IMG/VR virus record: IMGVR_UViG_3300043540_000321
Span: 1 to 64,000 of that record
Origin: a virus
DNA length: 64,000 nt
Strand: one strand, 5' to 3'
The notes under the pieces were generated by a model. The model had not been told where the DNA came from and ran no database searches. It saw only the letters and a list, made by a program, of their open reading frames with translations. The translations under genes and the position numbers were made by a program. This document shows, piece by piece, positions 1,177 to 57,500 of this stretch (position 1 is the stretch's first letter; every line of letters starts with the position of its first letter).

Positions 1177-1214
1177 AGAAGAGGGGGAGCGATCGCGATC
1201 GCTCCCCCTCTTCT
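1177..1214 (-). terminator. Rho-independent terminator of the par operon
   Basis: A perfect 38-bp palindrome with no loop. Its centre is two overlapping HIP1 octamers (GCGATCGC), and its arms continue as AAGAAGAGGGGGA and the complement. Read on the minus strand it is followed by a U-rich tract (TTTTTCT), and it begins 21 bp after the stop of the gene at 1235-2788. HIP1 sequence serving as the core of a terminator stem is unusual. Confidence 0.8.
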
Positions 1215-1234: not shown

Positions 1235-2788
1235 TCAGCGTCCGATCAACGTGAACGCTGAGTCCACACCGCACTTTAGAACAGCCTCTCGGACGTAATC
1301 ATGCACCTCGAATTGGGAATTTCTATCGGTAATCAGATGGACGAAGGTGTCCGTTGGATTGATAAACCGCTGTAAGTAGTACTCAATGCTGTTCTCAATG
1401 CCCGCGGGGGACCCGAAGTTCATCCGCATGGCGTCTGCAATCTTAGATTTCTGAGCGGCCGTCGGGTTGTTCAACAGGTCCTCGATAGCCCTATTCATCG
1501 CGTGTTGATACTCTTCCGACTCCAGGTCGAGGCCCTCAATCTTAAAGTCATCAATTAAGCCTCGGATCAGTCTCAGAGGCGGTTTGTAGGACATCGATAG
1601 AAGAACATGACTGGAGGCATGAGTAGCCCGCCCAACTATTCTTGGTGAGTATCCAGGCTGGCGACGAATGGTGTACGTCCAGCCCACATGGAAAGGGTCT
1701 AGCTGAGGACCAACGAACTGAATGTTCTGTTGCCCGCATACAGCCAATAGCACGCCGCCGTCCTTCATCCTTGGGTAGAGTATCTCAGCGAGGACCTTGT
1801 AGTCCACTAGAGACGCTTTCCCTAAGGGCATTTCAGCGAAGCAAAGGTCTACAGAATCCAGGGGCAGGTCAGAGAGCAGTTTAGACCACTTACCAGAGAA
1901 GGTTTCTACCCGCTGGTGGGCTACAGAGACTACTTCTGCTTCGAGGATTTCTTCCTCTTTTCTCCTTCGCTCATCCTCCCTTGGACGATTGAGCGCCTCC
2001 TTCACAGTGAGTCCTTTCAAGAGGTGCGGAGCGACCTCTAGCTGCCGTCTGACAGGGAGTTTCGCTAGTCGGCTGAGTTCTGTTCTATCCTCGGCCAGGT
2101 CCGTGCTGATTAAGAGTTGCTGAACTTCTTTCGGGAGACCCGCCGCCTCCATCTGGTGCTGGCGGTACCTCTCCACAATGTCACCGGCTCGCTTGCGGTC
2201 TACCTTCTCGCCTACCTCAGCCAGGGCCAGTATTTCATGCACGGCTCCGCTTGGAACGTCACCCCTGGAGAGGTTATACAAAGTAGACAGAGGAAGCTTT
2301 TCAAGCTCCTCTGGAGTATACTTCTCAGCCATTTGGGCCACGTTGACCCAGTTGTTCGCCGTATCGTAGCTGATGTGACCCTCAAACTCTTCCTGTACCC
2401 ACTTCATATAGGTTCGATTCGGAAGTTTCTCTCGCACTCGGAGGAACCATCTCCCTATCCGAATAATGCCGACAAGGGTCCGCTTGAATTCCTGTTTGAT
2501 CTCGCGAGCAGCCTCTAATGCAAGGGTCTGCGTTGCTTTATCTTTGATTTCAGAGTAGTTGAACCGTAGGGGTTCGAGCTCAGCGATCGCACTGTCTGGA
2601 GCGACAACCAGGGCGTTCTTGATACTTCTCCGGCGACCACTCGTTGTAGCCGTCTCTTTGCCTGGGGTGCTTGAGGTTACTGCCTTCTTTGTAGTGTTCG
2701 AGGTTGCCGCTTTTGCTGTCGTCTTAGTGCTTGCTTTTGCTGTCGTCTTAGTCTGCTTTTCAGCAGGTCGAGTGCGTCTTGTCGCCAT
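1235..2788 (-). CDS. ParB-position protein: DUF3102-like plus decayed methyltransferase-like domain
   Basis: 517 aa, 57 bp downstream of parA in the same orientation, where a centromere-binding ParB would normally be. Residues 1-60 are a Lys/Thr/Ala-rich low-complexity tail that probably touches DNA. Residues ~95-170 resemble DUF3102 (IGRWFLRVREKLPN, then a WV..AQMAEKY helix). Residues ~205-280 are helical and Leu/Arg-rich, in the place of a ParB helix-turn-helix. Residues ~300-410 have the strand order of an N4/N6 DNA methyltransferase around motif IV, but the DPPY position reads AEMPLG and a LYPRMKDGGVLLAV strand follows, so methylation is unlikely. Known: DUF3102 proteins occur on plasmids and phages, often near ParA. 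Inferred: this is the DNA-binding partner of ParA. The boundary between the helical part and the methyltransferase-like part is approximate. Confidence 0.65.
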   Translation of the reverse strand: MATRRTRPAEKQTKTTAKASTKTTAKAATSNTTKKAVTSSTPGKETATTSGRRRSIKNALVVAPDSAIAELEPLRFNYSEIKDKATQTLALEAAREIKQEFKRTLVGIIRIGRWFLRVREKLPNRTYMKWVQEEFEGHISYDTANNWVNVAQMAEKYTPEELEKLPLSTLYNLSRGDVPSGAVHEILALAEVGEKVDRKRAGDIVERYRQHQMEAAGLPKEVQQLLISTDLAEDRTELSRLAKLPVRRQLEVAPHLLKGLTVKEALNRPREDERRRKEEEILEAEVVSVAHQRVETFSGKWSKLLSDLPLDSVDLCFAEMPLGKASLVDYKVLAEILYPRMKDGGVLLAVCGQQNIQFVGPQLDPFHVGWTYTIRRQPGYSPRIVGRATHASSHVLLSMSYKPPLRLIRGLIDDFKIEGLDLESEEYQHAMNRAIEDLLNNPTAAQKSKIADAMRMNFGSPAGIENSIEYYLQRFINPTDTFVHLITDRNSQFEVHDYVREAVLKCGVDSAFTLIGR

Positions 2789-2845: not shown

Positions 2846-3622
2846 TCACCGGTGCAAATTCTCGACCCGATCGAGGTATTCATTGACCAAATTAACATAA
2901 GCGACCGAAACTGGCGCACTTCGGTACCGAAAAATGGACTGTCCACGGGCTGTTGCATTCACCTGACGACGGCTGTAAGGGATGACGGTTTCAAACACCA
3001 GGTCGCCCAGAGCCTCGCGCACATCGGTAATAGATGCCTGTGTAGACGGGCTGTTCGGTCGCTCTACCAAGGTGAGCACAATGCCAAGTACCTGTCCGAT
3101 CGGGTAACTCAACATCTCTCTTAAAGAAGAGAGGCGATCGAGCAATGTGATCACTCCCTCCTCACTGAGGTAGCGCAGTTGGACAGGGACGAGCAGGTTT
3201 TGCGAAGCGACCAGGGCGTTGATGGGTAAGAGAGAAAGAGAAGCTGGAGAGTCGATGAGGATATAGTCGAACTGTTCAAATAAAGGCTCCAAAGCCTGTT
3301 TCAGGACTACTTCCTTGCTTGGATGACCCAGGAGTAGGGCATCGAAGAAGATAAGGTCGGGACTGGCAAAGATAATCGATAGGTTTTCAGTAGGCGTTTG
3401 CTGGACAGCCTCCACGATCGGCATCCCTCGAAACACGTCCATCAGTGTCGGCGTGAGTTGAAGGCGACTGTACCCCATCGCTAACGCCGCGTTCGCCTGA
3501 AAGTCGCAGTCAACAATTAAGGTTCGATAGCCCTTCATTGCTATTCCCTGGCCCAAGGCGATACAGGTAGTAGTCTTACCGACGCCACCTTTAGCGTTGA
3601 CGATCGCAGTTATGTGAGGCAT
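2846..3622 (-). CDS. parA: ParA-family partition ATPase
   Basis: 258 aa, a typical length for the short ParA class without an N-terminal DNA-binding domain. The deviant Walker A motif KGGVGKTTT is at residues 11-19, the A' region is LIVDCDFQANAA, and the Walker B strand is YILIDSPASLSLL. ParA proteins bind the nucleoid as ATP dimers and are released by a ParB-type partner, which moves plasmid copies apart. It is transcribed first, followed by the 517-aa ParB-position protein, and about 23 copies of a heptamer lie directly upstream as a candidate centromere and operator. Chromosome-type ParA is unlikely given this context. The ATG at 3622 begins exactly at the conserved first beta strand. Confidence 0.92.
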   Translation of the reverse strand: MPHITAIVNAKGGVGKTTTCIALGQGIAMKGYRTLIVDCDFQANAALAMGYSRLQLTPTLMDVFRGMPIVEAVQQTPTENLSIIFASPDLIFFDALLLGHPSKEVVLKQALEPLFEQFDYILIDSPASLSLLPINALVASQNLLVPVQLRYLSEEGVITLLDRLSSLREMLSYPIGQVLGIVLTLVERPNSPSTQASITDVREALGDLVFETVIPYSRRQVNATARGQSIFRYRSAPVSVAYVNLVNEYLDRVENLHR

Positions 3623-3681
3623 ATTGGTTCAGACCAAGCGTAAGGGGCTAGACCCCCTTTGCTGCCTGGGTTTTTGTGATA

Positions 3682-4120
3682 CTGTTAGTGAAATGTTAGT
3701 GGATTTGTTAGTCCACTAACATTCAAATGTTAGTGGACTAACATCTGACCACGATTTACTAACATTTCACAAACACCCGACTAACATCTGACCACGATTT
3801 ACTAACAGTTGAATGTTATCGAACTGATGTACTATGTTAGGCGTTAGTAAATTTGCCAAAAAGCGTTAGTCGTGGAAATGTTAGTACGAACATTTGGATG
3901 TTAGTCCACTAACATTTCCACTAACATCGGCTGAAACCCCTGAAACTTCGTGACTAACATGTTAGTTGGATGTTAGTCCGAGAGCCCAAAATCCACTAAC
4001 ATTTGCCTGAAAGTTCGCACTAACATTTTTACTAACACCCCCAACTAACACGAGAATTGGGCGTTTGAGCCTCCCAGCCTTAAAAATCTAAAGATAAACT
4101 GGGGAAAAGTGGATGTTAGT
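3682..4120. repeat. Iteron-like array of TGTTAGT/ACTAACA
   Basis: In the 582-bp gap between the divergent genes at 3622 and 4205 I counted 11 copies of TTAGT in TGTTAGT-like context and 12 of the complement ACTAA in ACTAACA-like context. Several are arranged as short inverted pairs, such as GTTAGTCCACTAAC. Spacing is irregular (about 10-35 bp), most copies lie in 3682-4050, and a last copy is at about 4112. There is no unique spacer pattern, so it is not CRISPR. Such arrays are typical of plasmid origins (iterons) or of parS/parC centromeres that double as parA operators. Any promoter for the plus operon at 4205 would lie at its right end. No gene is visible here. Confidence 0.8.
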
Positions 4121-4204
4121 TCTGCAAAATTCTTTCTTAAGAATAAAAATTACATTGATTAAGTCCATGAGCGAAGGAAAATGTAGAAGTTTTTTCTTTA
4201 TTCA

Positions 4205-6339: not shown

Positions 6340-8511
6340 ATGCAACTAACTGGCCTCCCGAATAAGGAGGTAATCAACCACCAAATTGAGCGAATCAAGA
6401 AGCTCAGCATTAATAACCGGGAGGTGTTGCGCGACCTCGGCACCATAATAATCCCGAATTTTGAGAAGTGGTTACCATTCATCGATGAGATGAAATTAGG
6501 CATATCTGCTCGAGAGGTCAAACAACTTCTGGCTACGCAGTTTTGTCTTCGTGTCTTGATAGACACTCAAGGAAAACCACCCGACGATCCCGCCGTCAAA
6601 GAAGGTCTAAAGCTATGGATAGACTGGGTGAACCACTGGCAAGTTGGGGATTCCAAAGAGCAAATCCTAAGAGACGCGCACACTATTATGCAGGCCGCAG
6701 CACCTACTTCTAACTCGACTTCCTTCGCTAACTCACCTCGAACTGCCCCCACAGCCAGTTCGGGACCGAGCGAGCCGTCAGCATCATCTCAGTTGACTCG
6801 TGCGAATCCGACGGCGGTAGTCCGACGGCCAGTTGAGACTCAAGTTATCAAGACTATCGGTCGGAACACTCTTCTTAAAGGAGAGATGGTCGAGCAGGCC
6901 TACAGTTCGATTGGAAAGATCGAGTTCCTTCCAGAAGACTCATCTGACCGGGGGCTTAGGCATGACCGCCTACGTTTTAAGAAGCCGTTAACGGTCACTT
7001 TTGCCGCCTGTAAAAAGGTGCTGCAGGAGGTGATCAGTCACGCCGGAGTGGACCCTGAAACGGAGATACTCTTCAGGGCGTTGGCGAACAACCAGTTCGA
7101 CCTGCACATTCCCAGGCCGCCGGAGCAGTGGAAGATTCTCAGCTACACGGATTTCTTACACGCAGGATGGGATAAGTCGAAGTCGACTTTGGGCTCCTAT
7201 CTCTCTCGGAGATTTTTTGTTCCGCCGCATGAGCCTCCTCGAGTCCCGGTCGGGGTGAACCTGGATATGGAAGAGGTGGCTATCCGGTTTAGTACGGGTG
7301 TGTTTATCACTGGGAAACCAAACCAGGGTAAATCCGAGCTGGTGAAATCCATCCTGATGACCCTGGCGATCGGATTCCAACCGAACTATCTATGGTGGGT
7401 AGGCGCGGACTGGAAAGACGGGGCCTTACTCGATAAGTTCTCTTGCCTTCCTAGCTGTGTGCAACCGATCGCCAAGTCGGAAAAGGAAGCCCAGGAGCTC
7501 ATGAAGTGGTTGAAGGCTCAGTTCAAAAGGAGGGAGCGACTTCTCGACCCCTATAAGAAATATGGTGTTGAGAACATTTGTCACTACAACAAACTGCCGG
7601 ATGTTGAACCCATGCCCTGGCTGCTCCTCTTCTGGGAAGAGCTGGCTCGAGGTCGTGAAGTCTTAGGAGAGACTCAAGACGAGTTTCTCCGTTCGGTCTG
7701 TCAATACTGGCGGTATATCGGGATTATTCCCGTCGCCACCACCCAGTATCCCTCTCAGAATATATCTGGCTCTGGACCCGGTATGCGTTCTGCCTATGGG
7801 ACAAAGGTTGCCTTCAAAAATGATGAGGGAGCTAAACTCCTATTTGGTGAAAGTAGCATTCACGCTAAGTACGCTCAGGCTCTCAACGGACCTGGGGACT
7901 GTATAGTCGTAGGTGACGATAGCTTCGATCGTTGCCAGACATTCTTTGTCGAGCCAGAAATCTTGCTGCAGATTATCGATGCGATATCTCAGCGTGATGC
8001 TGACTATTCCCTACCAGAGCTCGCTCTGATTGGACCAGAAGAAGAGGAACGAGCGGTGGCTTCGGACCCTTCTTCGCCAGCCTCCTCGGAATCGGAACCG
8101 GATCGGGAGGAAGTGCTGGCTATGAGTACGAGTTACCAGGAAGAGACTATTACGGAAACGGACGAGAGCGATCTCTCGGACCTGCCCAATAATATGCTCG
8201 ACATGGTACGAAGGTTTCAGGATTACAACAGATTGATGCAACTGGATGCCGACCTGAAGAAGGAAGGTAAGCCAGGCGTCACTCAAAACCATAAATTGGC
8301 TATGCTGGTCGGAGACTATCTCTATCCAAAAGGAGACCCCCGGCGTGGAGTGTACCAGGGATGGTTATCTGTTGATGAATTTAAGAACCTTGACAAATCC
8401 GATCCGAGATTAAAGGTGTCTAAGGGAGGTCGTTACTTAGATAACGCGAAGCTCCGCTTGGAGGAGATTATCCAGAAAGTCTCCGGGGTAAACCAGCCTG
8501 TGGCTTGCTAA
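6340..8511 (+). CDS. FtsK/HerA-superfamily DNA-translocase-like ATPase
   Basis: 723 aa. An N-terminal helical domain is followed by a Ser/Pro linker (~125-165), a mixed alpha/beta region, and a P-loop ATPase core. Walker A is GKPNQGKSE at ~325, Walker B is PWLLLFWEEL at ~430, and a later segment (ALNGPGDCIVVGDDSFDRCQ) matches the end of the FtsK motor domain where the ring contacts DNA. Residues ~620-723 form a C-terminal accessory domain. There is no TM segment, unlike FtsK, but three small membrane proteins are encoded immediately upstream and could anchor it. Known motors of this superfamily pump DNA or protein through a membrane or pack DNA. Whether this one serves conjugation-like transfer, segregation or another secretion role is not settled. 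Confidence 0.8.
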   Translation: MQLTGLPNKEVINHQIERIKKLSINNREVLRDLGTIIIPNFEKWLPFIDEMKLGISAREVKQLLATQFCLRVLIDTQGKPPDDPAVKEGLKLWIDWVNHWQVGDSKEQILRDAHTIMQAAAPTSNSTSFANSPRTAPTASSGPSEPSASSQLTRANPTAVVRRPVETQVIKTIGRNTLLKGEMVEQAYSSIGKIEFLPEDSSDRGLRHDRLRFKKPLTVTFAACKKVLQEVISHAGVDPETEILFRALANNQFDLHIPRPPEQWKILSYTDFLHAGWDKSKSTLGSYLSRRFFVPPHEPPRVPVGVNLDMEEVAIRFSTGVFITGKPNQGKSELVKSILMTLAIGFQPNYLWWVGADWKDGALLDKFSCLPSCVQPIAKSEKEAQELMKWLKAQFKRRERLLDPYKKYGVENICHYNKLPDVEPMPWLLLFWEELARGREVLGETQDEFLRSVCQYWRYIGIIPVATTQYPSQNISGSGPGMRSAYGTKVAFKNDEGAKLLFGESSIHAKYAQALNGPGDCIVVGDDSFDRCQTFFVEPEILLQIIDAISQRDADYSLPELALIGPEEEERAVASDPSSPASSESEPDREEVLAMSTSYQEETITETDESDLSDLPNNMLDMVRRFQDYNRLMQLDADLKKEGKPGVTQNHKLAMLVGDYLYPKGDPRRGVYQGWLSVDEFKNLDKSDPRLKVSKGGRYLDNAKLRLEEIIQKVSGVNQPVAC

Positions 8512-8514
8512 CCT

Positions 8515-9384
8515 GTGTTATTTCGACTGCTTGCAGTAGCGATTATCTTATTCTCAGTAAAAGGTCAGTTGATGAAGGTGTTGGTTGGTCTGAGATCTCT
8601 CTCAGCCTCCGCACCTTCAGTTGTATCCATACCCGAAAAGCCGAAGGTGACAGACCCGCGCAAAGTCAGTGTTCAAGTCAGAGTTCAAACCATCACTGAA
8701 GACCGCGCAAGGTATAGTTTCGGGTCTGGAACTTTTATTAAACCCAATATTGTGCTGACCAACGCGCATGTGACCCAACCGTCAGGGGATGGTACGGTGT
8801 CCATCAATTTGGACAGCGATCCAACTGTTCCGCCCCTGGTTGGAAAAATTATTAAACAAGTGAAGTCGCCTGACCAGGAGGAAGGAACAGACCTGGCCCT
8901 GGTCCAGGTAGAAGGAAACCATCCTTACATAGATCTCTGCTCAGAGCTTCCACCTGTCGGTCTAGTGATGAAGATCCTGGGACATCCGAGAGGGTCAAGA
9001 GATGTTGTAGAGACCGCAGCGGTTGCGGCGATCGTCAAGCCCACTTTTCTGGAACTGAATCTGAAGCTCAAACGGTTTTATCCCGTCCAACCGGGCAATA
9101 GTGGAGGACCTCTGCTTCAGGGAGATTCAGATTCTGGTTACTGCCAGGCCGGAGTCGTCAGCCAAGTAGATACACGCCCAGGTTATCCTCGCCCCAATAT
9201 ACAGCGGGTGCGAGCGCAGTCCATCAAACAGATCAAGAAGTTTTTAGATACGTTTTACAGTCGCCCTTTTTCATGGCATGACAAAAAGGCGGCGGAGAAA
9301 GTTCTTAGACCTATAGAAGGACTTCCATCGGAGTTGGTATCAGTAGCCTGTTTGTTCGCATGGAATCAAAGGGATCGGGTGTAG
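8515..9384 (+). CDS. Secreted trypsin-fold serine protease
   Basis: 289 aa, GTG start 3 bp after the previous stop. A hydrophobic N-terminus (LLAVAIILFSV) looks like a signal peptide or anchor. The catalytic triad can be read: His85 in TNAHV, Asp126 in GTDLALV and Ser196 in PGNSGGP, the pattern of the S1C/HtrA-like group. No PDZ domain follows, and the chain ends about 90 residues after the Ser. HtrA-like proteases act in the periplasm on unfolded or specific proteins. Here it sits in an operon of membrane and exported proteins after the FtsK-like ATPase, so a role in maturing that envelope machine or in the host envelope is plausible. Confidence 0.88.
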   Translation: MLFRLLAVAIILFSVKGQLMKVLVGLRSLSASAPSVVSIPEKPKVTDPRKVSVQVRVQTITEDRARYSFGSGTFIKPNIVLTNAHVTQPSGDGTVSINLDSDPTVPPLVGKIIKQVKSPDQEEGTDLALVQVEGNHPYIDLCSELPPVGLVMKILGHPRGSRDVVETAAVAAIVKPTFLELNLKLKRFYPVQPGNSGGPLLQGDSDSGYCQAGVVSQVDTRPGYPRPNIQRVRAQSIKQIKKFLDTFYSRPFSWHDKKAAEKVLRPIEGLPSELVSVACLFAWNQRDRV

Positions 9385-22463: not shown

Positions 22464-23756
22464 ATGATTGTAACCCGCAGAATCACTTTCAGGCTGTATC
22501 CGAAAGTTGCTCAAGAGCGCAAGCTGTATGAGTGGCGACGGTTGCATTGCTATCTCTACAACTCTGCCTTGGCAGACAGGAAGGATAGCTATCAAAAGCT
22601 TGGCAAGTCTGTAGGTTACTTCGAACAACAGAACCGACTGCCTGAGTTCAAAACAGTGTGGACTGAGTTCAAGGCACTTGGTTCGCAGGCGTTGCAAGCC
22701 ACACTCAAACGGGTTGATTTTGCGTTTCAGCGCTTCTTCAAAGGTTTGGGTGGCTATCCTCGGGTTCAGTCGATTCGCAACTATTCAGGCTGGACTTACC
22801 CCGCGACAAGTGGCTGGAAGGCTCACACAACGGGCGACAACGGGTATCTGGAACTGTCTAATCTCGGGCAAATCCAGATGCGCGGCAAAGCGCGAACATG
22901 GGGCACTCCGACTACTTGCACCATCGTTTATCGACACGGCAAGTGGTATGCCTCCATCACGGTCAAGTGTGAGCCGAAGCGAAAGACTGAAGACGGTGCT
23001 GTAGGGCTTGATTTTGGCACGCTGACGGCAATTGCCGTGAGTGATGGTCAGAAGATTGAGAACCCCCGCTATCTGGCTGCTGCTCAGGCAAAGGTTAGGC
23101 AGGCATCAAAGCAAAAACGGCGGAAGCGAGCCCCCAATCGCAAACTCAAAATTAAGGGTTCGCGTCGCTGGAAGAAAGCTCAACAGCGAGTGTCAAAGCT
23201 TGTCCGCAAGGCAGCGAGACAGCGCACAGATTGGGCGCATAAACGCACGGCAGAGATCGTGAGCTACAACAGCCTCGTCGTGACGGAAAAACTCAATATC
23301 AAAGGCATGACCAGCAAAGCCAAAAAAGGGAAGCGCAAACGCCAAAAGACTGGTTTGAACCGCTCCATCCTGGATGTGGGCTGGGGCATGATGCGCGGGA
23401 TGTTGCAATACAAAGAAGCGGAGGCGAACGGGGTTTACCTAGAAGCACCGACGCAGCAACTCAAGCCCTCGCAGCGCTGCCCTGAATGCTGGCAAGTCAA
23501 ACCAAAGACTCTGGGGGAGCGTATTCACGACTGTCCCTGTGGTTGCACAGAGGATCGAGATGTTGCGTCCGCTAGAGTTTGCCTAATTTGGGCAAAGGGG
23601 TTAGGAACTAGCCTCTTGGACGCTGATCAGTCCGGCTCTACCAAAAGCCCCAAACACGCTGGAGGCTTTCGGCAACTGGCTGAAACGAAGCGTCAAAAAC
23701 TCCGCAATCTAGAGGACTCCGGGTTAGAAACCCCGTCCTCCTATGAGGCGGGGTAG
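22464..23756 (+). CDS. tnpB: TnpB RNA-guided nuclease of IS200/IS605
   Basis: 430 aa. The N-terminal helical part starts RRITFRLYPK. The RuvC acidic residues are present: Asp in VGLDFGTLTAIAV, Glu in VVTEKLNIKGM and Asp in EDRDVASARV. The zinc finger is CPEC...CPCGC between the second and third acidic motifs. An Arg/Lys-rich bridge (KQKRRKRAPNRK) is present. Known: TnpB cuts DNA with a guide RNA made from the right end of the element and helps the IS persist at its site. The guide would come from about 23640-23762 plus the flank. The gene looks intact and its stop lies within the right-end hairpin. Confidence 0.93.
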   Translation: MIVTRRITFRLYPKVAQERKLYEWRRLHCYLYNSALADRKDSYQKLGKSVGYFEQQNRLPEFKTVWTEFKALGSQALQATLKRVDFAFQRFFKGLGGYPRVQSIRNYSGWTYPATSGWKAHTTGDNGYLELSNLGQIQMRGKARTWGTPTTCTIVYRHGKWYASITVKCEPKRKTEDGAVGLDFGTLTAIAVSDGQKIENPRYLAAAQAKVRQASKQKRRKRAPNRKLKIKGSRRWKKAQQRVSKLVRKAARQRTDWAHKRTAEIVSYNSLVVTEKLNIKGMTSKAKKGKRKRQKTGLNRSILDVGWGMMRGMLQYKEAEANGVYLEAPTQQLKPSQRCPECWQVKPKTLGERIHDCPCGCTEDRDVASARVCLIWAKGLGTSLLDADQSGSTKSPKHAGGFRQLAETKRQKLRNLEDSGLETPSSYEAG

Positions 23757-28309: not shown

Positions 28310-28627
28310 ATGGAGCTCAAACAAAGAATCCCTCCTGAAATCGCTCAACTGCCTCTGGAAAAGTTCTACGAACATGTCCTGGCAGCAGAGCGGAGAGCGA
28401 AGGAGGCCGTCGATATGTCTACGGAAATGGTTGAGTCAATCCTCCGCCAGAATCAAGAGGCCACCATGCGCTGGCAGGATGCTATGAAGCTCCGGTTGAT
28501 GGTCGAGGACTATATTACGTTTTTGCAATCACCGGACACCTCCGCTGAGTCTCAGACCACCTATCACTTCTCCTATACCGCCGACTCTACCCAGCAAATT
28601 CCTTACGGAAGTACAAGCGACGAATGA
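28310..28627 (+). CDS. Small hypothetical protein
   Basis: 105 aa, helical in its first 75 residues (YEHVLAAERRAKEAVDM onward), then Ser/Thr-rich. It lies between recA and the polymerase N-terminal gene with a 4-bp overlap to the latter, so it is coupled to DNA synthesis genes. No family recognised. Confidence 0.55.
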   Translation: MELKQRIPPEIAQLPLEKFYEHVLAAERRAKEAVDMSTEMVESILRQNQEATMRWQDAMKLRLMVEDYITFLQSPDTSAESQTTYHFSYTADSTQQIPYGSTSDE

Positions 28628-29994
28628 TTGACTTTGTTTATTTGAAAGAGCCTGAGGAGTATCTTCGGGCTCTTTCTTACTTAGAACCCGAACCTGACCC
28701 AGCATGTGACGTAGAAACTCACGTCCTCCAGAAGTGGAGAGGTCGTGGTGGGTCTGCTCTTGACCCCCACACCGGTCGCATCAGTCTGCTGACTCTAAAG
28801 GGAAGGGGTACAGTGCCCCACATATTTGACATCCTCGAGCTGGAGAGACGGGATTACGATCGCCGTCCCATGTACGAGTACCTGCGGTCGCGGAAGAAAC
28901 TCCTTTTATTTCAGAGTCAATTTGACCTGAAGTTTCTCTTTCGTCACTACGGTGTGTTCCTCCGAAACGCCTGGGACGTTCGTCTCATGGCAAAATTAAT
29001 AGGGAACGCCACCGGTTCCAAATACGCCCGACAGATGGGACATACCCTTGCCGACGTGTCGCGGGATTGGTTGGATGTCCACGTCTTCGGTAAGGGCAGC
29101 GAGCAGGTATCGGACTGGTACCCTCGCCCTCTGACGCAAGAGAAGTTGCAGTACGCCGCCTCCGACGTAATGTACTTACACGACCTGCACGATATGATGC
29201 TCCCGGTCATCATCAATCCCCTCCCAGTCTCTCCTCTGAATCCCAACGGAGCAGACGATAAAAACTATGGGCTGGGGATGGCGAGGACGCTCGACCTGGA
29301 AATGAAAATGTGCTCCGTTGCCGCCGAGATGGAGTACAACGGGCTGCCGGTCTCGGCTGCTCTATTGGAAGACATCCAACGAGCCATAAAAGATGAAGAG
29401 ACCCTCTCTGGACGGCTGTACGAGGTAGCGTCGGAACTCTGTGAGATCTTAGGACTGCCAACCGAACCCTGTCTCTGGACGGAGGATCGGATTCCATCGG
29501 ACGCGGCGTTTAAGACGTTGAACAACCCTGTGAAGCTGAAGATTTTAATAAATCAGCACACCAGGCTGAACCTCGATAGCTCGCAGACTCAATTGCTGAC
29601 TCGACTGTTAGACCTGTTAGCTCAGATAGAAGAGAAGGGTGAACCGGACTTCGTCGATGATGATGAGCAGGCAGTCTACGGAACGATCGCTAACATCGAA
29701 GAGTCCGTGGCACTGGCGATGAGCAAAACCTGCTCGTTAATCGTGGAGTATAAAAAACTCCAGAAGTTATACTCGATGGACTTGCGATCGTATGTAAACC
29801 CTTGCACAGGTTGTATTCATAGCCATCTGGACATGTTGGGGGCGGCTACTGGACGCTCCAGTGGGTCAAACCCAAATCCTCAAAACATTTCCGCCCGGAC
29901 GTATATCGAGATCGAGCGTCCGTTTAATGATCTATTTCCCAGCTCAGCGAATTATGACCAACTCTTACCCGACTGGAACCCCTTCGCAGCCTAG
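28624..29994 (+). CDS. polA: DNA polymerase I, N-terminal half (3'-5' exonuclease and start of polymerase domain)
   Basis: 456 aa. The DnaQ-type proofreading exonuclease has all motifs: CDVETH (Exo I, D-x-E at 29-31), FQSQFDLKFL (Exo II) and YAASDVMYLHDL (Exo III). It is followed by thumb helices and the first conserved polymerase stretch AATGRSSGSNPNPQNISART. It then diverges and stops at 29994, before motif A. The missing part is found in the gene at 31644, 1.65 kb downstream. There is no 5'-3' exonuclease domain. The two products must assemble to make an active polymerase, since motif A and the O helix are in the second gene. It has an ATGA overlap with its upstream gene. Confidence 0.9.
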   Translation: MIDFVYLKEPEEYLRALSYLEPEPDPACDVETHVLQKWRGRGGSALDPHTGRISLLTLKGRGTVPHIFDILELERRDYDRRPMYEYLRSRKKLLLFQSQFDLKFLFRHYGVFLRNAWDVRLMAKLIGNATGSKYARQMGHTLADVSRDWLDVHVFGKGSEQVSDWYPRPLTQEKLQYAASDVMYLHDLHDMMLPVIINPLPVSPLNPNGADDKNYGLGMARTLDLEMKMCSVAAEMEYNGLPVSAALLEDIQRAIKDEETLSGRLYEVASELCEILGLPTEPCLWTEDRIPSDAAFKTLNNPVKLKILINQHTRLNLDSSQTQLLTRLLDLLAQIEEKGEPDFVDDDEQAVYGTIANIEESVALAMSKTCSLIVEYKKLQKLYSMDLRSYVNPCTGCIHSHLDMLGAATGRSSGSNPNPQNISARTYIEIERPFNDLFPSSANYDQLLPDWNPFAA

Positions 29995-30133
29995 CGACAT
30001 CGTCTGCGACCTGGGAGACCTAAAGTTACATCTCATGGACAAGATTCAACTTCTGACCCTAAAACGAGCATTAGCTCACCTGATTGAGAAAATCGACGCG
30101 GAGTTAGATAAACATGACACACCACATTCTTAA
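29954..30133 (+). CDS. Small hypothetical protein in the polymerase gap
   Basis: 59 aa from the ATG at 29954, overlapping the end of the polymerase N-terminal gene by 41 bp. It is mostly one amphipathic helix (LLTLKRALAHLIEKIDAEL). It also overlaps the next gene by 20 bp. It could be a peptide involved in joining the polymerase halves, but this is speculation; an alternative is a chance frame. A moderate coding signal comes only from its fit between neighbours. Confidence 0.4.
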   Translation: MTNSYPTGTPSQPSDIVCDLGDLKLHLMDKIQLLTLKRALAHLIEKIDAELDKHDTPHS

Positions 30134-30422
30134 GACGCATCCCGAACCCTTTGAAGCCTTATGGAGCCGGGTGAAACCCTTTGAGTTCAGAAGAAACGAC
30201 AGAGATTTTCAGGTTGGCGACTCCTTTGTCTTGAAGGAGTTTGTGCCGGACCTGGTTCCAGATGAAATCGGCGGGTGCTTTACCGGACGGTCTATCTTTG
30301 GAACCATCCCTTATGTTCTGAAGGAAGGGTATGGAATCCCAGAGGGATACTGCATATTCACCGTCAAAGAAGTCGGTAGAACGCTTAGAGAACCACTTGG
30401 AGTCGATGAAACCTTTAATTAA
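30114..30422 (+). CDS. DUF3850/ASCH-like protein
   Basis: 102 aa. The pattern LKTHPEPFEALWSRVKPFEFRRNDR followed by FQVGDSFVLKEF matches DUF3850, a PUA/ASCH-type RNA- or nucleotide-binding fold common on phages and conjugative elements. It overlaps the Dam-like gene by 17 bp. Its target is unknown. It belongs to the cassette that splits the polymerase gene. Confidence 0.8.
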   Translation: MTHHILKTHPEPFEALWSRVKPFEFRRNDRDFQVGDSFVLKEFVPDLVPDEIGGCFTGRSIFGTIPYVLKEGYGIPEGYCIFTVKEVGRTLREPLGVDETFN

Positions 30423-31194
30423 ATCAGCCGGCGGCAAAAGCTGGTTGGCTCCCAAAATTAAGCAGATTTATCTTGAACGGTTCGATGGATATCGAGTCGT
30501 CGAACCGTTCGCGGGTGGTGCGGCGGTGACGTTTGAGATACTGCCTAAACACGCTTTATTAAATGACGTCAACCAGGCAATTATTAATCTCTATACCTGG
30601 GTCTCTACAGGAATTCCCTTTAACCCAGAGTACTTTGTCTGTGAGAAAGACCATTTCTATAGGATGCGGCAGGAATTTAACAAGGGATTTATCAAGGGAG
30701 ACCCCTGGTCGCACAGGTCAGCTCAACTCTTCTACTTTTTGAATAAAACCTGCTTCAACGGCCTGACCCGGTTCAATGCTAAGGGAGAGTTTAACGTTCC
30801 TTTTGGCAAGTACAAGTCTGTGAACTATCGTCTGGACGAGCTGCCGTACTATGCCGGAGTGATGGGACGGTGGAGCTTCACCCAAATGCACTTTGCAGAT
30901 CTCCTGCTGGCAAACGGGCGTGAAGACGACTTCACTTACTGCGACCCACCTTACGACGATGGGTTTGTGCAGTACTCGAAAGACGGGTTCTCCTGGGAAG
31001 AGCAGGTTGAACTGGTCGAAAGGCTGAAGGTTCTACCCGGTCCAGTTATCGCATCAAACAAAGCCACCGATCGGATTCTCGACCTCTACGCCAATGCAGG
31101 GTTCGAGATTGAGTTGTTGGATGCTCCAAGAGCGATCAGTTGCAAGGGCGATCGCACGCCGGTGAGGGAAATGTTTGCCACGAGGAACCTGTGA
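30406..31194 (+). CDS. dam: DNA adenine methyltransferase (Dam/D12 class)
   Basis: 262 aa from the ATG at 30406. Motif X/I is EPFAGGAAV near residue 33, and the catalytic motif IV YCDPPYDDG lies near residue 180; between them is the FLNKTCFNGLTRFN stretch typical of D12-class N6-adenine enzymes that include Dam (GATC). It is intact. Cyanobacteria methylate GATC inside HIP1 sites, and this enzyme may do the same to protect the phage DNA or time replication; GATC specificity is not proven. It is the largest gene of the cassette between the two polymerase genes. Confidence 0.88.
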   Translation: MKPLIKSAGGKSWLAPKIKQIYLERFDGYRVVEPFAGGAAVTFEILPKHALLNDVNQAIINLYTWVSTGIPFNPEYFVCEKDHFYRMRQEFNKGFIKGDPWSHRSAQLFYFLNKTCFNGLTRFNAKGEFNVPFGKYKSVNYRLDELPYYAGVMGRWSFTQMHFADLLLANGREDDFTYCDPPYDDGFVQYSKDGFSWEEQVELVERLKVLPGPVIASNKATDRILDLYANAGFEIELLDAPRAISCKGDRTPVREMFATRNL

Positions 31195-31433
31195 GTAAAA
31201 CCTTAGAAGACTTGTTAGTCAAAAAAAGTATGCCGGAGATTCTGGTTCTCTTTAGAGAGGCAGAGACTTATCGGGAGTCCGGCGGGTTGCCGGAGGATTC
31301 TAAGATCCGAGAGCTGGCGCACCAGATTTTCTATCCAGTTAACGCTCTTCAACTAACGGCTGTCTGCAATGAGATCTATCGACAACTGGCGATCGAGGCA
31401 GTCACCTACTTCAAGCGACAGTCCCAGGTATGA
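31191..31433 (+). CDS. Small hypothetical protein
   Basis: 80 aa with a GTG start at 31191 that overlaps the Dam stop codon, and an ATGA overlap with the next gene. All-helical, no motif. It is part of the cassette splitting the polymerase gene. Family not recognised; the tight coupling is the main evidence. Confidence 0.5.
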   Translation: MSKTLEDLLVKKSMPEILVLFREAETYRESGGLPEDSKIRELAHQIFYPVNALQLTAVCNEIYRQLAIEAVTYFKRQSQV

Positions 31434-31675
31434 GTAGAGGGTTCTCTAAACCGACCAAGTTTGAAATTATCCTCCTCGTAGCATTTGAGGAGGGAATCCT
31501 TCTTCTGCCGTACCACGCGGTCAGGAATTTTATGACTTCCAGCCAGACTCGCACGACTCTGGAGTCCTTAGAGAAAAGGGGCTGGGTTGTTAACGCATCT
31601 CCGTATCGCTTGACAGATAGAGGGAAGGAGGCTCGGAGTCGGTATGTCAACTCCAACAATAGACGCCGTCGTTAA
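31430..31675 (+). CDS. Winged-helix-like small protein
   Basis: 81 aa. Segments FEIILLVAFEEG, TLESLEKRGWV and YRLTDRGKEA have the pattern of a MarR/PadR-type winged helix (third helix plus wing ending in LTDRG). The basic C-terminus overlaps the start of the polymerase C-terminal gene by 32 bp. It may regulate the cassette or bind DNA beside the polymerase. The fold is inferred from pattern. Confidence 0.52.
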   Translation: MSRGFSKPTKFEIILLVAFEEGILLLPYHAVRNFMTSSQTRTTLESLEKRGWVVNASPYRLTDRGKEARSRYVNSNNRRRR

Positions 31676-32651
31676 GATCGGTCTTCGGTCTCACGACGGC
31701 AAACCAAAGCCAGGTATTACTATGCGTCAGGCGTTTGTGGCTCCTGACGACTGGGCAGTATTAAGTTGCGACTACGGTAACCAAGAACTATACATTGCTG
31801 CCTTCGAGTCGAAAGATACGGCGATGTTGAAGGCGTTCAGTGACTCGAAGACTCTGCCTCTTCTAGATGCCTCTGGACAACCTATGTTCAAAGACGGCCA
31901 GCAGATCTTCTACCCAAACCCGCACGCGGATTTGCACTGTCTGACTGCCGTGTTTTGCTGTTTCCCGCGACTGTTTGAGGGAAGACCCGAGTATGAGTGG
32001 GTTCGCATCTCCAAAGATGAGACCCTGATCGTTCAGAAAGGGTGTGCCCGGGATTACGGGAAAAAGACAAACTTCGGAATCGCGTACATGCAGACCGCCC
32101 AAGCAATGGCGCAACTGAACTATGTGCGTGAGGAAGAGTGTGCTCAGTGGATTAAGGCTCACCAATCGCTCTATCCTGAATTTCATGCCTGGGCTCAGGA
32201 AAAGGCTGGGTTCTCGAATGCGAGAGGCTGGGTCGAGAACTCCCTGGGTCGAATCCGCTGGACGGCGGAAGATAACGCGAAGAAGGCTGGAGCATCCCCG
32301 GCCCGATCGGGTGTAAACCACTGCATCCAATCGATGGCAGCGGAGCAAGCTAAGCTCGCGCTGTGGAAAATCTCTGAGCGTCTTGAAAAAGAACCTCTGG
32401 CATTCCGACCCAAATTATCCATGCTCGTTCATGATGAGATCATCGTGATCGTTCCAGGAAAACTCATCTTGGATGAGACGAAGTGCATGTACGACGGTGT
32501 GACCTTTGTACCTGTCTATCGTCCAGACGAAGATGTTAAATACTGGGCTAAAGAACTCCAGACGTTAATGGAGGAGGCTCAAGCTGAGACCTTCAACTGG
32601 GAATTGCCGGGTAAAGCGGACCCTTCTACCTCCAGATTCTGGGCGCATTAG
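31644..32651 (+). CDS. polA: DNA polymerase I, C-terminal half (palm and fingers)
   Basis: 335 aa. After ~28 unfamiliar residues the family-A sequence resumes at MRQAFVAPDDWAVLSCDYG (motif A, with Asp), continues to the O helix RDYGKKTNFGIAYM (motif B, Arg/Lys/Phe present) and ends with LVHDEIIV (motif C, His-Asp-Glu). So all catalytic polymerase residues lie here and the proofreading exonuclease lies in the gene at 28624. The motif B loop has a Met where Gly is usual. The start at 31644 overlaps the winged-helix gene, and the true start could be a little further in. The stop is followed by a hairpin. Confidence 0.9.
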   Translation: MSTPTIDAVVKIGLRSHDGKPKPGITMRQAFVAPDDWAVLSCDYGNQELYIAAFESKDTAMLKAFSDSKTLPLLDASGQPMFKDGQQIFYPNPHADLHCLTAVFCCFPRLFEGRPEYEWVRISKDETLIVQKGCARDYGKKTNFGIAYMQTAQAMAQLNYVREEECAQWIKAHQSLYPEFHAWAQEKAGFSNARGWVENSLGRIRWTAEDNAKKAGASPARSGVNHCIQSMAAEQAKLALWKISERLEKEPLAFRPKLSMLVHDEIIVIVPGKLILDETKCMYDGVTFVPVYRPDEDVKYWAKELQTLMEEAQAETFNWELPGKADPSTSRFWAH

Positions 32652-51511: not shown

Positions 51512-54500
51512 TCAACCTACAGCAGTGATATAGTCACTTTGTTTCGGGAGCCCAGTCGCCGACTCCCACGATTTCAAATACGAGGTTTCGGTAGCCACTC
51601 GAATGACTGTCTTGTTGTCTCGCTGTTCGACTGTGGCGCGGACCTTCGCCTCTTTAATAATTCCATCCTGGGTCTTGTATTGATACTGAGTGTTGGGTCG
51701 AATAGCCACCGCTTGCCGCTTTAACTCATTCAGCCGTTGCTGAGCCGCCTTCACTTTATCTCGAGTGAACTGGACCACTTTTGCGGCGGTTGCGACCGGC
51801 GGGACTGTTGGGTTGGCGGCCAGGGCCAGCAGATGTCGGTCTACTGTTTGTGCCGCTGCCTTAAGTCGAGTCGTCTTCTCCGGCCGCTTCGGTTGATTCT
51901 CATTCGCTTTCTGGGCCGCCTGCCCTAAAGAGGGCTGTGTCGGTTTAGCATAACGAGAGAAGGCTCTCCAGTAGTACTGCAGAAGTTCGGATGCCCGACG
52001 AGTCGGCTGCCCGTAAGGAGCGTCGGGGAAGCTCGCCCAGACCGAGCGAAGCTTTCTCATCGCCACATTAATACGCCCAGCGTCGATGTCCGCCAAAGCT
52101 CCTTGCTGTTGAATCAGCCAGAGCGCGGCCTTATCCTGGCTCGCTGGAGAGAAGTCTTTCAGCCCCAAAGCTTTACGAGCATCATCCCAGGTGAACGACA
52201 TGAACTGATATCGTCCGGCCGCATCTGACCGGATACCACCGCCGCTCATTACAGTACGGGGATGGTCGGCGAAGTTCGAGAACCGACGCCCCGTGAACAT
52301 CACGTTGTAGTCCGCGCCTTCCGAGTAGCCAATCATATCGAGGAAGGCCCGGCGAGCCGCGCTGATGTTTGTCGCTCCCACGTTCCCCTTTCGACTTCCG
52401 AAGTCTCCCGAGACGAGAGCCTTCATGTATCGTTGCAGCAACGCTTCTGAAGTCTCCAGGTGAACGTGGACAGCCGTAGAGGTCTCGCCCGTACTCCCTT
52501 GGATACCCAATCGTTGCCCAAACCTGACCGTCTGTCCGGCCTTCACTTCAATGGTTTTGTTGTGCAGAACTCGAGTGACCGCGCCGGAGGCATCCTGGAT
52601 TTTAATCATGCCGAGTTCCCCTACGAACCCAGCGAAAATGACCTTACCTTCTACCGGAGAGGGTACTGGGACGTTAGTGCTACTCCCCCTGTTCAATTGG
52701 ATGTCGACGACTCGCTGCCCGTTATCGAGATAAGATTTCAGCTTCCCGTGGTCCATCCGATAGCGGACGTATCCCCCCGTCCCCTCCCAGTGAGGACGTA
52801 ATTCTTCGGCACTGCGGGCGATACCTTCTCCATACCGGCGACCTCCGAGAGACCAAACGGTGTAAGGAGTCAAACGCCCCACTCCGTCGACCGAGTCGGT
52901 GAAGGCGGAAGACACTTGGTCTTTAAGGTCAACGAGAGCATTCGAGAGACCTTCTCTCACCTTCGCGGTTGTGTTCATCAATCCTTTCGCTACATTATTG
53001 AGCTTGGTGAGAGCGTCTCGGGCGAACTTCTCGGCGTTCCACCACAGGTTCTTAAACCCATCTCCGACCGATCGCAGCAGCCCCATCAATCCAGTGGATG
53101 CCGGAGGTTCTTTCTTCCGGATCCAGCTATCCCGAGAGGGTTGTGCCCGAATGATTTTCTGTATCTCAGGGTTGGTCAAACCCATGCTTGCCTCATGGAC
53201 GGGCATATAGGATAGACCCTCGCGCTTGGTGTGCCGGAGGTCTTTGGTTCCAAGGAAACTACTGAAGGAACCAGCCAGGCTACCAATTAATAAACCAGCA
53301 CCAATTCCAACGCCAGCCAGCAGCAGGATCGGAGCGGAGACAATACCGGCGGCAACCAACCCGGCAGCAGCAAGACCTCCCAGGACGGCACCTCCGATTC
53401 CACCTAATAGCTGGTTACGGACAACGGTTTTGGCCCCGACTCGGCGGGCGAACGCCTCTGAGCCGAGCTTTTCTCCTATCTTCGAGAAGGTGTAGTCACC
53501 GATGAGGCTACCAGCAATGGCTGCGATCGGACCCGCAAGAGAACCTCCGATGATGCCCCCTCCGAGTGACCCAATACCACCGGTGGTTCTTCGCAGAGCG
53601 ACCTTGTACTCAACCTCACTCCTCGCTGTCTGTGCTTTTTGAACCCCGCTACCAATCCGCCAGATATCGATGATCGGTCCGGCAAATCGCAGAACGTGTC
53701 CGGCCCCTCGAGCTAAAAACCCAGCCGGTTTGGCGAACTTCGCGGCGAGTTCTCCAACCTCAGGTGCAGACTTTCCAAAAACTCTCAGGAAGCGGGCTTG
53801 TGCGGCCTCGCTTGCTCTTGTCAAAGCTCCGGCGTACGTTCGAGAAGCAGAAGTCGCTATTCGGTCCATCAAGGAAGCTGAACCCGATAGCACTCGAACG
53901 TTTGCCGCCGCAAGGTAGCGCTCAGTCAAAGTAGAGACTCGAAATCCAATAGCCTGCCCAGCCTCCTTCGCCAGAGCCGCCTGCTTCAAACCCGGTTCGA
54001 GAATATCCTCAAGGATTGGAACAGCTCCGTAGTCCTTCGCCTCATATCTCATGCGGGCGACTCGTACGGCCTCTTCGGCTCCGCCGACCTGACCGAGGAT
54101 AGATCCGGAGATGTCCCCCAGAACGCCTCCAGAGAAGACCCCCAAAATAGACCCGACCAGGGAACCTTTAGCTCCACCCATCTGGGCGTACGCTTCTTCT
54201 ACATCTGTCAGACTCGAAGTTTTGTTCAGTCGAAGTGCTTTAAGAGCTCCTCCTCCTAAAGTAGTCAGGTCAACGACGGGGGCGATCGCACTGAGAATCC
54301 CCTCTCGGTAGCCGTGTGTCAGGACATACTCGGACATCTTCGGAGCCAGCCGACTCATACGGAGCACAACCTGATCAAGACCTTTCTCCACAGCCTGTCC
54401 AATGAAATGGTTCGCTCGGGTTAGAACTCGTTTCAGCCACCCGAATCCTTTTATTAAATGACTGGGTAGGAGACGAAACTTTTGAGCAATCCCTTCCATG

Positions 54501-57500
54501 TGGTCCAGCGCCCAAGTTGAGACTCGACCGGGGATTGTCTTTGCCGTCTCATAGGCTCCTCGGATCTGATCGAGTGCTTCCTGGCGAAACTTAATGTTCC
54601 AACTGAACCCTTCGAATAGACTTCGCCCAAAGTCCCGAGCCATGCTAAAAGTCTGCCGAATCTGGTCGATAGCCTCCTGTCTGAACTTAATGTTCCAACT
54701 AAATCCATCAAAGAGCCGTCGAGTTAATCCAAGTAGGCCTGTTGGACGGTTCAAAAATTGGAAGGCGCGACGAATCTGGTCGACGGCTTCCGACCGGAAC
54801 TTAATGTTCCAGCTAAACCCGTCAAATAGATGGCGACTTACGTTGAGCATACTTCCAGCCCAATCGCTCGCCCCACTCAACAGCCCTCCTATGAATCGCT
54901 GCGACACGTTAAAAGCTCTTCGGATCTGACTAACAGCTCCTGAGCGAAACTTGATAGACCAGTCCCACCCTTCAAATAAACCTTTGACAAATTGACCCGA
55001 TGCTCGGAAACCTCGACCAATCTGGTCAATCGCATCCTGTCGGAAACGGACTTTCCAGTCCCATCCCTCGAACAGACTGCCCACAAAACTTCGAGAGGTC
55101 TGGAAGGCTCGCCCAATCTGGTTCAGCGCCTCCTGACGAAACTGAACGTTCCAACTGAACCCTTCAAATAATTTTTTAATAAAACCAGTCCCGCCCTGAA
55201 ACAGGTGGAGGTTACTGACCCAACTCCAACTCTCGCTGAGGTACTGAGCCCCTCTCTGCAACATCAACCTAGATGTCTGATACGCCTGTCTCATCTGACG
55301 TATCGCCTCAGGTCGAAGACGAATGTTCCAGTCCCATCCCTGAAATAGACCATGCGCGAAGCGACGAGTCGCATCAAAGGCCCGATGAACTTGTGCAACA
55401 GCATCCGGTCGAAGGCGGATGTTCCAGTCCCATCCTTTTAATAAAAATTGAGTCCCTGAAGCAATAGCCGAGAGTCCAGAGGAGATAACACCCGTCAGGA
55501 CTGGAAGGGCAGAGGCTGCGATCGCCGTCAGTTGACTAACCACTCGTGTTATCTTCGGGCCCGCCTCTGCCAGGTAGCGGAGGGTCTTACTGACTAATGG
55601 GCGGAGAGCCTGCCTAACCCTCCCTGTCAGGAATTGACCGACTGTAGCCTCCTTCTCAAACGATCGGTTCAAGCGAATGTACACAGAGGAAGACTGCATC
55701 GGGTTGTAGACATAATTTCCGTTGTCCAGATCTTTCAGGTCTTGCGCGGAGATCCAGGAGCTCAACCCAAAGAACCCAAACCTCGAGAGTACGCCGACAG
55801 TCAGCCCCGCTGCTAGTCCAGTCCACCAGCGCCCAGAGAAGAACGCGGCAAAATTACCTGCGATCGAGCCAAACATTACACCCATCTGCTCGTCTCTTGC
55901 TTCAGCTAACTCCCGCTGAGCTTGCAGCCGGTTAAACGATCCTCGAATTTTGGCCTGCTGGATAGTCTGAACAGTAGTCTCGAATTTATGAACCGAGTGG
56001 ATGCCCAGCATGAAGTCCAGAGCGACGAAAGCATTCTCTGCGATCGAACCCAGTGACCGGAATCTCTGCTGTTCAGTCAGCAGTCCTCTAAGAGTCTCAC
56101 CCGACCGAGTTTGGATGTCTTCTATCATTCCTCCAATCAGAGGGCGTCCTCTATATCGAACAGGCGGACGAAGACCCTCTTGTGGAGGAAGTGTCTCCAT
56201 CAAAATGCTGTACCGATGAGCAATATCATCTATCCTCGTCTCTCTATCCAACGTGTTGGTCAGACCTTCAAACTGGTCTCGATGAGTCGCTGAGAATGCG
56301 CCCAGAGCGCGGACGTTAGCCGAGATCTCATCCCTCAGCATCTCCTGAAGAATGTCCTGCCCAAACTTAAATTCGTCGAGCGTTCGCATCGCCGAGGACT
56401 TACTGACTCGTTCAACGATGTCCTGCAGCCGGTTGGTCTCAGTTCCCGTTTCATAAGCGATGACCTGCAAGTCATCAATGTTCAGTTTAGGTAGCGTCCT
56501 TTGAAACTCGATCGCGTGGGACATCTCATGGAACGCATCGAAGATAGCTCGGGTCACAGCACTGGGGCGAACGAACTTACCCGCTCTCATCCGACCCAGA
56601 ACACTCTCGGATGCCTTAGACAGGGTTACTGAACCTTCCTGCAGGTTGTACATACCTTCTATCTGGAACGGAGACCCGTCAAAAGATACGGGCGTGCCCG
56701 ACAATGCCGTTCGATTCAATCCCAGGCCCGTTTGAAACTCTTCTTTCAGAGAGACAACGGACTCACGAGCGGCCTGCGATATCGTTGAGCTGACTCGTCC
56801 CCTAAATAGAAGGGAGAAGAGGTCAGGTAACGCTTGGAAGAAACTGAGAGTCTTTTTAACTGAGCTACGGATCATCCGCTGGTTCCGTTGCACCCAATCA
56901 TAAGAGTCCATTGTCATGCCGGTCAGAGAGAGCTGCGTCGTTGGACCGGTGAACAACCCAAATGCCGAACTCAACGCAAAGTTAGCGGCTCCACGCATAG
57001 CTGCGGCGCGAAGACCCTGAGCCCGAGCGATAGATAGTAATTTTGGGAGTTGGGTCAGCGTAGAAAGACTACCGACCAGAGCGGACTGCTTCAGATAGTT
57101 CAGGACTGGGTTCTTGTCTTTACGGCGGTAGTCTCCGAGGGCTAAGTTCTCACCCGCCCAGCCTCCTACAAAACTCCCCAAAGCAGAAGCAATTAAAGCA
57201 GGAAGTGGGCGTTCGACCAAAGACAGAGCAGCAGCTCCGGCGGTGTATCCACCCAACGACATGCCCACCTCCCGGTAGGTCTCTCGATACTCTTTGTAAC
57301 TGCTTCCTCGTCCGAGAGAAGAAAGTCGATAGTCCGTCTGTTGAGCTATCAAGAGCTCCAGACGACTTAAGAGGATCGGCCCGATCGGAACTTTGGGAAG
57401 TGAGGTCATTAGAGTCCCTATGCCTCGGTCTAACCCTCGCCGCATTCCAAATGAGAGAACCTTTTTCAGAGGTTCCATCATCTCTTGGGAAAGACCTATT

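Follow-up and report, generated by a model that had tools for sequence, protein, structure and literature searches.

A putative ParABS-like partition locus in a phage, with a heptamer array and a DUF3102 protein in the ParB position

By analogy of architecture, the closest known system to the phage locus described here appears to be ParA-ParT-parS of the Streptomyces plasmid SCP2, a CTP-independent variant of ParABS. ParT is described as a ParB-like protein that lacks the CTPase domain: ParA is activated by its flexible N-terminal peptide, which is accompanied by a long helix, a middle domain of the helix-turn-helix type and a separate C domain that can be swapped for another dimeriser; its parS is given as an 18-bp inverted repeat, which ChIP data place within parT (PMC12260392). 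The same source reports ParT homologues in 21 cyanobacterial species and assigns 44 of the 45 cases of ParT with a neighbouring parA to Actinomycetota (PMC12260392). Chlamydia plasmids are described as having no parB homologue (PMC7846284), and their Pgp6 is expected to act as ParB alongside Pgp5 as ParA (PMC11895440), while UPF0137 is presented as a family including plasmid-encoded virulence proteins (PMC6925127). The delta/omega (ParA/ParB) system of pSM19035 has a heptad parS made of 7-bp repeats in both orientations (PMC9499535). Fusions of ParB-CTPase folds to N6/N4 methyltransferases are reported to be frequent in phages (PMC12704722), and phage scaffolds with ParA and ParB genes have been described from glacial viromes (PMC4490671).

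The locus studied here lies in the first 64,000 bp of a viral record of 195,211 bp; this whole 64-kb stretch, which was the DNA analysed, is called the window below. The features of the locus are as follows.

1177–1214, minus strand: intrinsic terminator with a 17-bp stem, a 4-nt loop and a T-rich tail, 20 bp past the stop of gene 2
1235–2788, minus strand: gene in the ParB position (gene 2), 517 aa (open reading frame, profile search)
1235–1936, minus strand: C-terminal domain of gene 2, residues 285–517, weakly N6/N4 DNA methyltransferase-like (HHalign)
1871–2143, minus strand: residues 216–306 of gene 2, further helices and a long joining helix, 262–306 (model)
2144–2575, minus strand: DUF3102 domain of gene 2, residues 72–215, all-helical, candidate DNA-binding domain (profile and model)
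2576–2788, minus strand: disordered basic tail of gene 2, residues 1–71, candidate ParA-contacting peptide with a putative role (model and composition)
2846–3622, minus strand: parA, 258 aa, Walker-type partition ATPase with a deviant Walker A (profile searches: AAA_31, 6.5e-43; phrog_164 'ParA-like partition protein', 3e-51)
3683–4120, no strand: array of 21 heptamers in both orientations, proposed centromere and operator (counts, shuffles, record scan)
3706–3721, no strand: 16-bp inverted pair TGTTAGTCCACTAACA (motif search)
3728–3743, no strand: 16-bp inverted pair TGTTAGTGGACTAACA (motif search)
3831–3859, minus strand: promoter-like site within the array, towards parA, 9 of 12 bases
3899–3914, no strand: 16-bp inverted pair TGTTAGTCCACTAACA (motif search)

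Gene 2 starts 57 bp after parA on the same (minus) strand, and the strong terminator directly past gene 2 makes the array, parA and gene 2 look like one unit; given this terminator (1214–1177), the minus-strand gene at 199–927 is probably a separate unit. Between the terminator and that gene, short motifs (CTGGCTAGG / CTAGCCACTGGCC) form a further small cluster (945–1165). The KGGVGKTT motif sits at the N-terminus of the ParA, which indicates a ParA without the N-terminal HTH domain. Of the components of a canonical type Ia ParABS system, the Walker-type ParA was found and a ParB with an N-terminal CTPase domain was not: an earlier note on this DNA had held that a ParB homologue is absent, and indeed ParB_N (PF02195) has no match by profile search in the 195-kb record, the same search being positive in 10 of 14 control genomes. 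An ordinary ParB was rejected for want of a PF02195 match. No ribbon-helix-helix match (PF01402) exceeded the cut-off in the record, with one weaker match at position 16023 (E 0.056). Together, the gene layout and the protein families point to ParABS-like partition, and we consider it reasonably probable that the locus serves the partition of an extrachromosomal phage, ParB being replaced by a DUF3102 adaptor.

The array itself is well defined. About 23 copies of TGTTAGT had been claimed in front of parA, a figure that counting bears out: positions 3683–4120 hold 21 exact TGTTAGT/ACTAACA heptamers (9 plus, 12 minus), 23 copies if GTTAGT is counted, and 24 GTTAG cores, split 12/12 by strand. 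The array fills the 582-bp intergenic region (3623–4204) between the divergent parA and the gene at 4205, for which 1000 dinucleotide shuffles gave a mean of 0.16 heptamers and a maximum of 2. Just two more exact TGTTAGT copies occur in the rest of the window, and the 195,211-bp record yielded no second heptamer array. Across the whole record, all 14 places with ACTAACA-N(1-30)-ACTAACA pairs fall within 3683–4050, and the 16-bp arrangement TGTTAGT-nn-ACTAACA occurs at three sites, 3706, 3728 and 3899, and nowhere else. The length of these inverted pairs equals the 16 bp given for the canonical ParB parS (PMC12260392).

The array is not a head-to-tail tandem: heptamer orientation is mixed and spacing irregular, with centres 7–78 bp apart and a weak phase of about 10.8 bp (R 0.61; random 95% limit 0.565). 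Promoter-like sites are no commoner within it than in shuffled sequence. From SCP2, as described, the phage locus differs in having a 21-heptamer array upstream of parA rather than an 18-bp repeat within parT. With the pSM19035 centromere, as far as its description goes, the array has in common the short 7-bp repeats in both orientations. However, contiguous heptads are required in pSM19035, whose ParB belongs to the ribbon-helix-helix proteins, whereas the phage heptamers are separated as above and would be served by a DUF3102 adaptor.

A scan of IMG/VR for TGTTAGT arrays elsewhere yielded at least 119 stretches; no relatives of ParA, gene 2 or the third gene were found at E 0.1 in the 119 array loci examined, so the heptamer is no marker of the system. 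Among the IMG/VR loci, L054 (7762–8211) is a phage gene with an Arc-like ribbon-helix-helix end, in which the repeat region, translated as VSATN, forms inverted TGTTAGT pairs at the DNA level. L064 and L091 contain arrays resembling that of L054, the inverted pairs in L064 also being intragenic, and another viral contig (L013, 9094–9209) has four copies of TGTTAGTTAACTAACA between glycosyltransferase-like genes.

Could the array instead be an origin of replication, of the iteron type or a phage ori, to which an initiator binds, with parA as a chance neighbour? We consider this unlikely. An origin would accord with an intergenic, AT-richer region (GC 0.40 against 0.50 across the window) at a divergence of transcription, with the change of sign in AT skew near 4 kb and with the weak 10.8-bp phasing, but iterons are usually direct repeats and the orientation here is mixed (9/12) and the spacing irregular. 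The cumulative GC-skew minimum is moreover weak and near 6 kb, and the array stands directly upstream of a two-gene parA operon.

The second gene was described in the earlier note as a DUF3102-like protein in the ParB position, and profile searches uphold this. The match to DUF3102 (PF11300) in Pfam is weak for full-length gene 2 (E 0.0078) and, for the domain alone (E 0.00095), lies below the curated cut-off (19.8 against 24.4 bits). All 36 members of the alignment match the DUF3102 profile, and relatives in other genomes reach E values down to 2.8e-14, so that the assignment of residues 72–215 to DUF3102 is supported by sequence comparison. UPF0137, which we take to be the family of Pgp6, is matched by 10 of the 36 aligned domains (best 9e-9), and the gene 2 product itself had no UPF0137 match in the profile search. 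Chlamydia Pgp5/Pgp6 and the phage locus both present a ParA without a recognised parB, but phage gene 2 does not match UPF0137, and we know of no methyltransferase part in the Chlamydia pair.

Ahead of the DUF3102 domain, residues 1–70 are predicted to be disordered (pLDDT about 34–43 in the AlphaFold model), and residues 1–71 contain 15 K/R against 4 D/E; a disordered N-terminal peptide like that of ParT is therefore predicted for gene 2. The SCP2 system, as described, and the phage locus, as predicted, have in common a ParA partner, inverted-repeat sites, a long helix, a separate C domain and an adaptor in which no CTPase domain is recognised. The C-terminal domain of gene 2, by contrast, is large and weakly methyltransferase-like, a part that ParT lacks in its description. 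The likeness of gene 2 to ParT thus appears to be one of architecture, not of demonstrated descent. No described system had been thought to share this architecture; SCP2 is a close analogue, although the methyltransferase-like part does not figure in the account of it.

Structure prediction of 1235–2788 and comparison with ParB, as the earlier note had proposed, gave two different pictures. In the first model (pLDDT about 74–96 across residues 72–290), Spo0J ranked first of 239 PDB chains realigned with VIA-align (Z 8.6, 3.2 Å over 114 residues, model residues 82–208), followed by Raf1 (rank 2), Noc (Z 7.5, rank 3) and Noc with its DNA site (Z 7.2, rank 4), although for helical folds a Z below about 13 can be meaningless. 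In the second model, of the DUF3102 domain alone, residues 84–121 form a single continuous helix, and the best ParB-family match is the P1 ParB-DNA complex (Z 3.9, 42 residues, 1.8 Å). No ParB was among the Foldseek matches of either model against the PDB, which were chance helical matches throughout, and a profile comparison of DUF3102 with 19 cyanobacterial ParB proteins was not significant (score 17.8, while the best of 60 column shuffles reached 18.7). We also set aside the matches of the DUF3102 profile to PDB sequences: the two best were designed repeat proteins, and the others, none better than E 0.18, were designed proteins or phosphoribosyltransferases. The possible resemblance of DUF3102 to the DNA-binding domain of ParB/Spo0J/Noc is, on these models, a lead rather than a result.

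The C-terminal domain had been read as a DNA methyltransferase fold with DPPY changed to AEMPLG. Against a profile of seven N6/N4 methyltransferases, residues 285–517 scored 23.4 (HHalign probability 3%), a score equalled by 2 of 200 shuffles and by none of 60 segments of window proteins. AEMPLG does align on DPPY (motif IV), where the catalytic motif is lacking. The identity of the fold is weak: residues 263–517 have no Pfam match at E up to 10, PF01555 (N6_N4 methyltransferase) has none in the record, the last 118 residues show no significant methyltransferase match, with a decayed SAM motif visible by eye alone, and no methyltransferase occurs in the structure-match lists, the model being of low confidence across the C-terminal part. 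A dead methyltransferase is plausible on this alignment, if not proven. That a decayed methyltransferase recognises the DNA, as had also been suggested, has partial support and is doubtful as regards the methyltransferase part: DUF3102 is the better candidate for reading the DNA, and the methyltransferase-like part is more likely a structural relic. The phage fusions described in the literature resemble the proposed architecture of gene 2 in linking a ParB-related module with a DNA methyltransferase; they combine a ParB-CTPase fold with a recognisable methyltransferase, whereas no such fold was found here.

Close relatives of gene 2, its C-terminal part or ParA were not confirmed in viral_contigs, nor were those of a phage helicase and two cyanobacterial DUF3102 proteins; full-length gene 2 relatives were not confirmed in genome_contigs, and the C-terminal part was found in none of 386 cyanobacterial genomes. 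DUF3102 is joined to Dam (E 4.4e-13) in an Anaerolineae MAG (L132), and in 14 cyanobacterial DUF3102 proteins the C-terminal domain is related to N6/N4 methyltransferases (HHalign 94.5%, 64 columns), with DPPY and glycine motifs that look lost by eye. Loci of the family combining DUF3102 with a seemingly decayed methyltransferase are L145, L146, L147, L155, L158–L162, L165, L168, L171, L131 and L142, and L163 has a Dam-like NPPF stretch (by eye). An HHalign match between the DUF3102 and decayed-methyltransferase alignments was discounted, as both had been cut from overlapping protein sets.

ParA lies near DUF3102 at 1 of the 30 cyanobacterial loci inspected within ±1.5 kb, at 1 of 7 loci from genome_contigs and in 2 of 12 plasmid regions. 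In these counts some loci coincide, L126 and L151 for example being one place, and the unannotated plasmid records L125 and L126 were searched for ParA by phmmer alone, which missed the divergent ParA of L128. On one cyanobacterial contig (L166/L180) parA overlaps the DUF3102 gene by 4 bp; the overlapping pair (L180, 317–1790) is accompanied by two copies of a 23-bp palindrome, one of them inside the DUF3102 gene. On Methylorubrum pB146-3, where a portal gene is present as well, ParA-family and DUF3102 genes are one gene apart; the distance is about 2.9 kb in the Anaerolineae MAG, where an FtsK-like gene is also near ParA and the DUF3102-Dam gene, and 2.8 kb in Levilactobacillus pPUL102_3. The majority of DUF3102 genes are not adjacent to ParA. 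Judged by title or abstract, the three papers found to mention DUF3102 do not deal with partition, and no such system was among the matches listed in literature searches.

This scatter bears on a further alternative, to which we give a similarly low probability: that the array is mainly an operator, through which gene 2 regulates parA and the divergent gene at 4205, with ParA used otherwise, for example to interfere with the host nucleoid or division. The many DUF3102 genes far from ParA, the fusion of one of them (L142) to a response-regulator domain and the occupation of a divergent intergenic region would all suit an operator, yet 21 half-sites across 430 bp are many for one, and partition loci are usually laid out in this way, with parA next to the gene of a DNA-binding adaptor and to densely clustered repeats. 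Least probable is binding of the heptamers by a third, unrelated protein such as a ribbon-helix-helix protein, which the inverted TGTTAGT pairs inside genes of L054 and L064 and the Arc-like product of L054 might suggest, but those repeats encode the VSATN peptide repeat and so may reflect coding, and the phage's own record has no ribbon-helix-helix match above the cut-off.

The record carries phage genes for a tail, a DNA polymerase, a UvsX-like recombinase and a helicase. The phage-plasmid lifestyle proposed earlier is plausible, given ParA and the lack of any tyrosine integrase found in the record, but no overlap of the record's ends was detected. The window contains 21 GCGATCGC octamers where base composition predicts 1.0; the octamer is the cyanobacterial HIP1 site, which makes a cyanobacterial host probable. 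Elsewhere in the window, DNA polymerase A (28624–32651) is seemingly split into an exonuclease and polymerase start (28624–29994) and a remainder (31644–32651); the halves are separated by other ORFs spanning about 1.6 kb, possibly an intervening element. An FtsK/SpoIIIE-like ATPase is followed by a trypsin-like protease (6340–9384), an OrfB_IS605/TnpB-like gene has a Cas12f1-like TNB domain (22464–23756), and a single open frame of 4157 aa (51512–63985, minus strand) reaches the window edge.

Under the favoured reading, a ParABS-like partition locus, the gene 2 product would act as a centromere-binding adaptor. Its DUF3102 domain would read TGTTAGT half-sites as dimers at the 16-bp inverted pairs, and the protein would spread or cluster across the array. 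The disordered basic N-terminal tail would touch nucleoid-bound ParA-ATP and stimulate its ATPase, so that the phage DNA would be carried along a ParA gradient and inherited by both daughter cells. Array binding would also repress the parA operon, with a promoter expected in or beside the array, and the dimerisation domain of ParB or ParT would be replaced by the C-terminal domain, probably the relic of a methyltransferase without catalytic activity. The phage would be maintained as a plasmid.

A wider proposal, which we put forward tentatively and regard as rather doubtful, is that DUF3102, with UPF0137, comprises overlooked CTP-independent adaptors of the ParT kind, in which the dimerising clamp is here replaced by a dead methyltransferase, and that such adaptors explain ParA loci without ParB, including those of Chlamydia plasmids. 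If the partition reading holds, DUF3102, a family without an assigned function that was found here in plasmids, phage contigs and cyanobacterial genomes, would gain a testable role, and the CTP-independent branch of ParABS, described in 2025, would be wider. That reading would also hint at the route by which a large and otherwise isolated phage is inherited.
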